DNA of 61,364 bases, taken from positions 1 to 61,364 of the forward strand of contig PXYT01000018.1 of assembly GCA_003023725.1 (NCBI GenBank). Reading direction: 5' to 3'. The stretch comes from Sulfobacillus benefaciens. GTDB taxonomy: Bacteria; Bacillota; Sulfobacillia; Sulfobacillales; Sulfobacillaceae. Made by a program: the position numbers and the translations under genes. Position 1 is the stretch's first letter. Each line of letters begins with the position of its first letter. This document shows, in pieces, positions 5,881-40,095 of this stretch. Below the pieces are notes generated by a model. That model ran no database searches. It had not been told where the DNA came from and was given only the letters and a program-made list of their open reading frames with translations.

Positions 5881-5956
<76 letters not shown>

Positions 5957-5963
5957 GATTTGA

Positions 5964-6041
5964 TGGCGGAGGCGACGGGATTCGAACCCGCGATCTCATA
6001 CGTGACAGGCATGCGTGTTAGGCCAGCTACACCACGCCTCC
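5964..6041 (-). tRNA. tRNA-Asp (anticodon GTC)
   Basis: Acceptor GGAGGCG pairs with CGCCTCC, the anticodon arm is CATGC-CTGTCAC-GTATG with anticodon GTC, discriminator G as expected for aspartate, CCA encoded. One G-T pair is in the anticodon stem. Confidence 0.94.
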
Positions 6042-6053
6042 GTTTTTTCAAAA

Positions 6054-6128
6054 TGGTGGGCGGAACAGGTTTCGAACCTGTGACCCCCTGCGTGTAAGGC
6101 AGGTGCTCTACCGCTGAGCTATCCGCCC
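6054..6128 (-). tRNA. tRNA-Val (anticodon TAC)
   Basis: Acceptor GGGCGGA pairs with TTCCGCCC, anticodon loop CTTACAC giving TAC, discriminator A, CCA encoded. Together with tRNA-Val(GAC) at 1561-1638 it covers all valine codons. Confidence 0.95.
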
Positions 6129-37711: not shown

Positions 37712-38341
37712 ATGATGATTCCGGGGCTAACTGTGTCACACGGAACATGGTCCGAATTAAGCATTCGTCATTCTCGCTTTATCAGTTGTGCTTTTCATAT
37801 CGAAAACAACACTCAATTTACCGAGATTCTACAGCAGGTTGTAAACACGTGGCCCAAAGCCAGCCACTATGTCTGGGCTTATGTTCTGACAACCGGTCAG
37901 GAACGCATGAGCGACGACGGCGAACCCCAGGGAACAGCCGGAATTCCCACACTTTTCCTCATTCAAAAGCGGCATCTGGTATATACGGCTATCGTCACAG
38001 TCCGGTATTTCGGCGGAACAAAACTGGGAAGCGGAGGACTTGTGCGAGCATACAGGCAGGCATGTGAGAACGCCCTGTCCCATGCCCAGTTCGGGCGTCA
38101 GGTGGATATCGTCGAAGCCACTGTGACATTGCCCTACTCTTCATGGCAACAGACACATAATTTTCTGGTTAACAAAAACATTTCTTTCACTCCTGTTTTC
38201 CTTCATCATGTTGAAATTCACTGCGAAGTTCCGGAAGACGACTGGCCGACCTTTTGTGATGCGTTGCAGACAACCCTGGCTCCTGATGCTAGCATAGTGG
38301 AATCCCACCCTGCTACCGCCATATCTCCCTGGGTTCCCTAA
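37712..38341 (+). CDS. yigZ: YigZ/IMPACT family protein
   Basis: A 209-residue member of the UPF0029/IMPACT family. Family marks are FISCAFHIENNTQF, ASHYVWAYVLTTGQERMSDDGEPQGTAG near residue 50-75, TVRYFGGTKLGSGGLVRAY, and the C-terminal YigZ_II domain from about residue 140. The role in bacteria is not settled; the fold resembles ribosome-linked factors. The ATG at 37712 is 4 bases after AAAGGA. It is a single plus-strand gene. Confidence 0.93.
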   Translation: MMIPGLTVSHGTWSELSIRHSRFISCAFHIENNTQFTEILQQVVNTWPKASHYVWAYVLTTGQERMSDDGEPQGTAGIPTLFLIQKRHLVYTAIVTVRYFGGTKLGSGGLVRAYRQACENALSHAQFGRQVDIVEATVTLPYSSWQQTHNFLVNKNISFTPVFLHHVEIHCEVPEDDWPTFCDALQTTLAPDASIVESHPATAISPWVP

Positions 38342-38420
38342 AGATCTCCCTTTCCAAACGAAAAACATTAATCTCTTGACCCATAACGTCGCCATAATTT
38401 GTCCTCCAGTCTTGAAGAAC

Positions 38421-38656
38421 GTCAACGACCCCGGCCTCAAGGCCGGAGCTTGCGACTCCCCGGAAGTGCAGGCGACAGCCACAGCCATCGCCTCCCTTCG
38501 GATGGGGTCGCATCGTAGGGGGGTGACAACACCCTCACGATCACGGGCTTGCCGCGATCGCACCTGTCACCCGGTACTCAATTCCCTGGCGGTGCCGGCT
38601 TTTCCACCTCCTAATGAAGTCGGAACAATCGAGGACCTTACCTAAGGAGTTGTTCC
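38421..38656. repeat. Hairpin-rich island, possible IS200/IS605-type or ncRNA relic
   Basis: Three inverted repeats lie in 236 bp between converging genes. (1) CCGGCC-TCAA-GGCCGG at 38431-38446, flanked by TCAACGACC and AGCTTGCG, a form often seen at ends of IS200/IS605 or TnpB elements. (2) A nested pair, outer GGGTGACA/TGTCACCC at 38521-38572 with inner CGATC/GATCG. (3) GGAACAA/TTGTTCC at 38622-38656 with inner CCTTA/TAAGG. No transposase or TnpB frame is present. This suggests a degraded palindrome-ended element, a structured RNA, or bidirectional terminators. The element name is a guess. Confidence 0.45.
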
Positions 38657-38671
38657 GATCCTGGGGCAGCA

Positions 38672-39304
38672 TCATCCGAGGCCGGCTAATCCCCTTGCCG
38701 CCAACAACCTGAGGCACTGGGTTCGCTTGTCGGACGCGTTCATGACAGCTGAAATGACTGCCACCCCATCCACTCCGCTCTTCCATGCTTGGGCCGCATT
38801 CTCCGGATTTATACCGCCAATCGCCACCACCGGCGCAATGGCCGCAGCCCTTTTTACCAGTCTAACCGTTTTTTCGGTGCCTAACGGCATCCCCGCGTCA
38901 TCTTTGCTCAAAGTGGCAAAAACAGGACCCAGTCCGAAGTAATCGGGAGGACAGTCCGCCGCGCATTCTATCTCTTGAAGAGACCCGGCAGATAATCCCA
39001 CCGTCAGCGACGGGGCAAGTTTTCTGACAATAGACACTGGCATATCGTCTTGCCCCACATGTACGCCGTCAGCTTCCAGTGCCAGGGCTACGTCTAAACG
39101 GTCATTCACAATAAATGCCAAGTGATTTTGCAAGCACAATTCTCGTACCACACGCCCATAGTCCAGTAACTGCCGTGTCGTAGCGGACTTTCCCCGCAAC
39201 TGGATCACACTGGCTCCCCCCTGAGCCATATTTCCGATTTCGCGGGGAAGATCACCCGGAGAGATGGTGACGGTATCCATTAACACATGTAGTCGCAGAT
39301 TCAT
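38672..39304 (-). CDS. thiE: Thiamine-phosphate synthase
   Basis: A 210-residue TIM-barrel enzyme that joins HMP-pyrophosphate and thiazole phosphate. GGASVIQLRGKSATTRQLL carries the pyrophosphate site, FIVNDRLDVALALEADGVHVGQDD the Asp/metal and substrate site, and AIGGINPENAAQAWKSGVDGVAVISA the phosphate-binding end. It overlaps thiD by four bases (ATGA). No TPP riboswitch is visible upstream of the operon. Confidence 0.95.
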   Translation of the reverse strand: MNLRLHVLMDTVTISPGDLPREIGNMAQGGASVIQLRGKSATTRQLLDYGRVVRELCLQNHLAFIVNDRLDVALALEADGVHVGQDDMPVSIVRKLAPSLTVGLSAGSLQEIECAADCPPDYFGLGPVFATLSKDDAGMPLGTEKTVRLVKRAAAIAPVVAIGGINPENAAQAWKSGVDGVAVISAVMNASDKRTQCLRLLAARGLAGLG

Positions 39305-40095
39305 GGCATATCACCCGGAAAATGCCATAAGGGACCATGGCCATGTCCAAATCTTGGAGCTTCTAAAATGGCGCGGGATACATAGTGTTTGGCTCTGGTG
39401 ACAGATTCCACCATATCGTGTCCTTGTGCGAGTCCCGCAGCTATAGCACTAGATAATGTACACCCTGTTCCATGCGTATGAACGCTTTGAATCCGTTCAC
39501 CCTTTAGCCACAATTCCTCTTGACTCGAGCATAGCAGATCATCTGAAGGATAGCCTTCCAAATGCCCGCCCTTTACGAGAACGTATGGAATCCCCTGCTG
39601 GACGAGAGCGCGTCCTGCCCGGAGCATGTCCTCCGGGCAATTAATCTCTTTCTGAGACAGAGCCTCTGCCTCAGGCAGGTTCGGCGTAATCAGAGTGGCC
39701 AGTGGCAGCAGGTGTTCTCGCATTCTATTTTCGGCACCAGGACTTAATAACGCAGCACCTCCCTTAGCACGCATAACCGGGTCGACTATGACGGGTATCA
39801 TTTTGGCATAACGGCGCAGTCTGTCCGCCACCGCGATAATAATCTCGTCCGAAAAGAGCATGCCAATTTTAATAACATCAACGCCGATGTCCTCAATCAC
39901 GACATCAATCTGTTCTGCAACCACCTCTGCATCCACGGCCACAATCTTGTAGACTCCTTGCGTGTTCTGTACAGTGATGGCGGTAATTGCCGACATTCCG
40001 TATACCCTAAAAGCCGAGAAGGTTTTTAAGTCCGCTTGAATTCCGGCTCCGCCGCCAGAGTCGGATCCCGCAATCGTCAAGGCCCGGGGAATCAT
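39301..40095 (-). CDS. thiD: Hydroxymethylpyrimidine/phosphomethylpyrimidine kinase
   Basis: A 264-residue ribokinase-fold enzyme that phosphorylates HMP twice. RALTIAGSDSGGGAGIQADLKTFSAF near the start binds the substrate, and TPNLPEAEALS plus HTHGTGCTLSSAIAAGLAQGHD contain the anion hole and the catalytic base. ATG 40095 follows AGGAGGG and overlaps the stop of the PurM-like gene (ATGA); the longer frame to 40137 is rejected. It is the middle gene of a three-gene unit. Confidence 0.95.
   Translation of the reverse strand: MIPRALTIAGSDSGGGAGIQADLKTFSAFRVYGMSAITAITVQNTQGVYKIVAVDAEVVAEQIDVVIEDIGVDVIKIGMLFSDEIIIAVADRLRRYAKMIPVIVDPVMRAKGGAALLSPGAENRMREHLLPLATLITPNLPEAEALSQKEINCPEDMLRAGRALVQQGIPYVLVKGGHLEGYPSDDLLCSSQEELWLKGERIQSVHTHGTGCTLSSAIAAGLAQGHDMVESVTRAKHYVSRAILEAPRFGHGHGPLWHFPGDMP

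Follow-up and report, generated by a model that had tools for sequence, protein, structure and literature searches.

Stand-alone omegaRNAs of IscB exist. For the TnpB system of ISDra2, the accessible parts of two reports describe a guide RNA (reRNA) that spans the tnpB 3' end, the right end of the element and ~16 nt of flank (PMC8612924), and an omegaRNA of four stems, in which the 3' end of the scaffold forms a pseudoknot with stem 1 (PMC10097598). According to the accessible part of PMC7290912, a PATE-like IS605 remnant of Halanaerobium hydrogeniformans measures about 271 nt, of which 28 nt are left end, 58 nt the final part of tnpB and 160 nt right end. In the literature on stand-alone or orphan omegaRNAs no paper was recognised as describing the case presented here, and none was found on Sulfobacillus with TnpB.

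The case concerns a segment at 38421-38656 of a 61,364-nt stretch of Sulfobacillus benefaciens DNA (contig PXYT01000018.1; the whole stretch is referred to as the window), flanked by a gene of the YigZ family (37712-38341, plus strand; 131.5 bits, under the NCBIfam cut-off of 167.95) and by thiE (38672-39304, minus strand; TIGR00693, 178.6 bits, cut-off 145.1). Judging from sequence comparison, the segment is very probably the decaying relic of an IS200/IS605-type TnpB-only element, reduced to a 3' part that comprises the omegaRNA scaffold and the right end. Such a relic is of a known kind, an ordinary mobile-element remnant, and it lies downstream of thiE and on the same strand. Within what the accessible parts of PMC8612924 and PMC10097598 cover, it resembles ISDra2 in its RNA, which covers the end of tnpB together with the right end and combines stems with a 3' pseudoknot, and in the host flank that follows. 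It differs in that TTCAT, rather than the TTGAT given there, precedes the left end in relatives, in that the relatives' 1.36-1.39-kb elements with their ~1.13-kb tnpB leave no space for tnpA, and in that the tnpB of the window is almost gone and its pseudoknot loop one base short. As far as the accessible part of PMC7290912 describes it, the Halanaerobium remnant has nearly the same 3' content as the window relic, whereas no left end can be recognised in the window copy.

A TnpB-only IS200/IS605-type element would thus formerly have stood between yigZ and thiE, oriented as thiE, and deletion and decay would have taken its left end and nearly all of tnpB, while the last ~178 bp stayed. In a working element, the transcript of the 3' part would fold to the scaffold, with the terminal GUUGAC pairing with a stem loop; by analogy, the next ~16 nt of host flank would be the guide, with which TnpB would cut the empty site beside the target motif. 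This reading offers an explanation for an unannotated structured intergenic stretch and supplies ends, a likely target motif and an omegaRNA model for a TnpB family of Sulfobacillus-related bacteria.

Copies of the segment and complete elements

The segment is multi-copy. BLASTN against its own assembly yielded eight matches, namely the segment itself, five copies of 85-90% identity that cover bases 1-178 of the 236, and two shorter stretches matching bases 1-78 and 1-36. Matches occur in 25 of 61 genomes (its own and 60 relatives), in many of them to the first ~32 bases, the end hairpin, alone. The preliminary description had proposed this search, and the single-copy result that it said would speak against it did not occur. 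Past base 1 the host flanks are unrelated, differing flanks sharing at most 13 of 25 letters (26 rows, one copy being entered twice), and base 1 is therefore the end of the element. The terminus, GTTGAC at 38421-38426 (minus strand), accordingly marks the junction between element and host.

The whole conserved relic, 38421-38598 on the minus strand, was delimited by BLASTN and by nhmmer, where it matches positions 1203-1383 of a 1383-position model of six related elements (E 6.2e-56). It includes, at 38541-38594, the last 17 tnpB codons (HRQGIEYRVTGAIAASP) with the stop codon at 38543-38541, as seen in the ORF list and by tblastn, which aligns them to TnpB residues 358-374 (94% identity, E 1.7e-6) and at E <= 0.01 found no further part of TnpB in the window. 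The earlier statement that the segment is without any ORF therefore stands for intact genes, and fails for these minus-strand codons. An 81-aa frame of the window gave no Pfam match.

Complete elements of 1357-1388 bp, running from TTCAT|CAAAA to GTTGAC in the order TTCAT, left end, TnpB and omegaRNA, were found at five loci of relatives. Four of them (L009, L033, L012 and L014) contain a single open TnpB frame of 377-382 codons on the omegaRNA strand, and in the fifth (L010) the TnpB frame is broken across two frames. The domains of a complete IS200/IS605 element, PF07282 (Cas12f1-like TNB domain) and PF01385 (OrfB_IS605), are above cut-off in the frames of L009 and L003 and absent from the window copy; the NCBIfam guided_TnpB model gives these two frames 196.8 and 193.6 bits (cut-off 100). 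For the L009 protein, 18 distinct PDB sequences reach E <= 0.001 (the best 1.1e-20), TnpB and Cas12f chains included. It also returned 19 public loci; the seven full or long matches closest to it (82-100% identity) come from MAGs labelled Sulfobacillus acidophilus, Bacillota bacterium or Clostridiales bacterium. When the plasmid collection was searched with the same protein, only distant TnpB relatives appeared, the best at 64% identity.

Since these complete relatives are closed by the segment, the segment corresponds to tnpB 3' end, omegaRNA and right end. The search for TnpB elsewhere with the same ends, suggested at the outset, thus had a positive outcome, and the complete elements, ending alike, bear out the early impression that the first hairpin and its flank are a TnpB-element end. 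The complete relatives resemble IS1341-type (TnpB-only) elements in that TnpB lies between left and right ends with no space for tnpA inside; the window differs in retaining a 3' remnant only. The own assembly has one full-length TnpB frame, at C124, beside a copy of 89% identity; C124 aligns with the complete elements from about the tnpB start onward, its left end not being covered.

The omegaRNA scaffold

The folding signal is strongest for the minus strand over 38564-38421 (-79.4 kcal/mol, z = -4.05, 0 of 200 shuffles as good), as compared with z = -2.89 for the plus strand of the 236-nt island (again 0 of 200). The hairpin cluster first placed at 38421-38656 is thus real as to its hairpins, whose fold beats shuffles. 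Its left boundary is exact, 38421 being the right end of the element; its right boundary is not, homology ending at 38598.

Overlapping the tnpB 3' end and running to the right end of the element, as a TnpB omegaRNA does, the scaffold (reRNA) occupies 38421-38563 on the minus strand. It is identified by fold z, pair counts and covariance model R1, which scores it at 153.3 bits (E 1.7e-34) and was built from 18 copies with the window copy among them. The end (right-end) hairpin at 38428-38449 (A1 columns 126-147), the first inverted repeat noted earlier, includes one pair of which both bases are changed in 7 of 18 copies. The nested inverted repeats were also correctly seen: TGCGACTCCCC at 38451-38461 pairs with GGGGTCGCA at 38504-38512, with AGGCGAC..ATCGCCT at 38470-38493 inside. 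This long-range stem and its enclosed hairpin (38451-38512, helices 3-5 of A1) show no pair with both sides changed. A further stem at 38517-38535 (A1 columns 30-49) carries the loop partner of the terminal GTTGAC, all on the minus strand.

In the 18-copy alignment, 95.2% of the 734 cells of 41 pairs are paired, where shuffles give 92.5% and none of 500 reaches the observed value; double-changed cells number 24, where shuffles give 8.2 (0 of 500 as many). The structure was derived from the alignment used to test it, which works in its favour. In slid controls the paired cells drop to 39-49%. Five pairs have any double change, a number that 84 of 500 shuffles reach, and there are 25 further pair types, a number that 172 of 500 reach; the covariation therefore rests on few pairs. 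Some covariation is nevertheless present in the copies, its absence in relatives having been the other outcome said beforehand to count against the description.

The 3' terminal GTTGAC (pseudoknot columns 149-154) is complementary to the GTCAAC loop of helix 2, and 96.3% of the pseudoknot cells pair, with no pair changed on both sides. The 18-copy family thus has a conserved multi-stem fold with a 3' pseudoknot. The window copy retains the stems, and its GTCAAC loop is short of one A, a base present in 17 of the 18 aligned copies; by bulging, the weakened pseudoknot might still form. The suggestion of a guide-RNA-like relic was accordingly accurate, an omegaRNA scaffold overlapping the tnpB 3' end with a pseudoknot in the family; what had alternatively been proposed as a novel structured RNA is this same TnpB scaffold.

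A mechanical repeat finder (repeats of at least 12 nt) listed none of the hairpin arms of the island. Against 4227 Rfam families at the gathering cut-off the island was unmatched and tRNAs alone were found in the window; at E <= 10 nothing relevant appeared, the best weak match in the island being ASpks (17.9 bits, cut-off 52). The window carries two clusters of three tRNA genes apiece on its minus strand, at 1564-1814 and 5884-6128.

Decay in the family and the putative guide position

The family was counted as 27 model matches of at least 80 bits in 42 genomes, matches below 80 bits being left out (three of these, L109, L110 and L111, were inspected outside the count). Among the matches listed, seven of the 27 copies adjoin a TnpB that is full or nearly so, though in some cases with stops, eight have TnpB fragments, eight, window included, are without TnpB beyond 17 codons, and four are truncated by contig ends. 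The TnpB-less copies break at approximately -178, -134 (with a further piece to -160), -133, -122, -121, -112, -94 and -86; two pairs of breaks differ by one base, and the 600 nt before the breaks share nothing. As far as sequence can tell, the picture of these eight is one of repeated, separate decay, and similar truncated copies, flanked by unrelated sequence, are frequent among its members. Several breaks fall near -112 to -140; selection for an omegaRNA core is not claimed from this, as copies were detected through the omegaRNA itself and would have escaped the search if too little of it remained.

Two fragments in G000 (C101:40057-40488 and C79:144506-144658) correspond to the TnpB N-terminus, residues 1-144 and 1-51, and among the matches listed neither has a C-terminal part next to it, a reciprocal kind of relic.

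In the window, the 16-nt guide position would be the host flank at 38405-38420 (minus strand), GTTCTTCAAGACTGGA, placed by analogy with the accessible part of PMC8612924. A guide function of this flank is likewise suggested by ISDra2, and TTCAT is the probable target motif, from the left-end junctions of relatives. No TTCAT plus guide site with <= 3 mismatches occurs in the own assembly besides the relic itself.

These data bear on whether the window copy could be a retained stand-alone omegaRNA, still loading as a trans-acting guide into TnpB made elsewhere, which we consider quite unlikely. Its scaffold, at 153.3 bits, approaches the 160.8-172.6 bits of the five copies that adjoin an intact TnpB frame (the model was trained on all six), but the other seven TnpB-less copies, at 81.0-129.8 bits, lie well under those five. 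The full frame on C124 could supply the protein in trans, yet the own assembly holds no TTCAT plus guide target. Finally, although eight of the 27 copies of at least 80 bits lack TnpB beyond 17 codons among the matches listed, both exact pseudoknot strands persist in only two of these eight (compensated changes being scored as loss), and the window loop is itself one base short. The wider proposal, that in Sulfobacillus-related bacteria TnpB elements repeatedly lose the nuclease and keep the omegaRNA, some copies, the window one included, acting in trans with TnpB elsewhere as a dispersed guide set for one nuclease, is very unlikely; stand-alone omegaRNAs active in trans would bear on the spread of TnpB guides. 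As a decaying relic, the window copy is probably inert or nearly so, because it has no adjoining tnpB, misses a pseudoknot-loop base and has no target in its own assembly.

The thiE side of the relic

Left ends were searched for in the window by alignment, nhmmer and local search, and none was detected; in the stretch beside thiE, 38652-38780, 85 of 300 shuffles matched left ends equally well. The palindrome-ended non-autonomous element of the preliminary description, that is, an ends-only (PATE/MITE-like) element still movable in trans by a transposase, is therefore highly improbable here. The own assembly does have eight matches to the Y1 transposase family PF01797, seven of them over cut-off, and two short copies of relatives, L099 and L101, keep both ends and start TTCATCAA. 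In the window, however, no palindromic left end preceded by the target motif, as in complete elements, was detected, so that only one palindromic end is recognisable. A TTCAT lies on the minus strand at 38618-38614, but it is followed by TAGGAGG rather than CAAAA, and the window has about 1.3 such motifs per kb on each strand. Nor do several short copies have the same deletion, the eight TnpB-less copies sharing no sequence before their breaks.

The internally deleted copies L099 (G037:C211, 460 nt) and L101 (G018:C81, 349 nt) are candidates for PATE-like elements carrying an omegaRNA, the right end of L099 being altered.

Beyond the relic proper, 38604-38651 (minus strand), a stretch that includes most of the last hairpin, may represent the decayed start of the tnpB coding sequence, which is suggestive only. 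Its best local alignment, to the start of the L010 element, is unusual, being reached by 4 and 3 of 1000 dinucleotide shuffles and by 2 of 500 and 7 of 1000 segments taken at random from the window; its mean over the 18 references taken together is not, 124 of 1000 shuffles and 182 of 1000 random segments equalling it, and nhmmer with the six related elements left it unreported. Were it true, the copy would have lost an internal part, and the last hairpin would have arisen by chance in decayed coding sequence. This hairpin (38621-38657), tested as a repeat, occurs once in the own assembly.

That the island is a host intergenic structure (a terminator or regulatory RNA of thiE or yigZ) unrelated to TnpB is extremely unlikely, for although it lies between convergent genes and includes the single-copy palindrome at 38621-38657, it is multi-copy elsewhere, has, among the match places listed, none at the yigZ-thiE spacers of seven genus members, and a promoter and terminator scan of 38100-39400 found none.

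No empty site was recognised in the spacers of the seven genus members, which were read by eye, unaligned; in G001 and G005 yigZ and thiE are some 0.7 kb apart. The yigZ-thiE spacer of the genus member G004 (L040:1071-1504) has two stretches that match a different, tnpA plus tnpB IS605-type element of the window's own assembly (L133), one near the tnpB 3' end (292-379, 80% over 88 nt) and one near the tnpA 3' end (1763-1869, 70% over 109 nt, E 0.003), and looks like a separate ends-only relic in that spacer.
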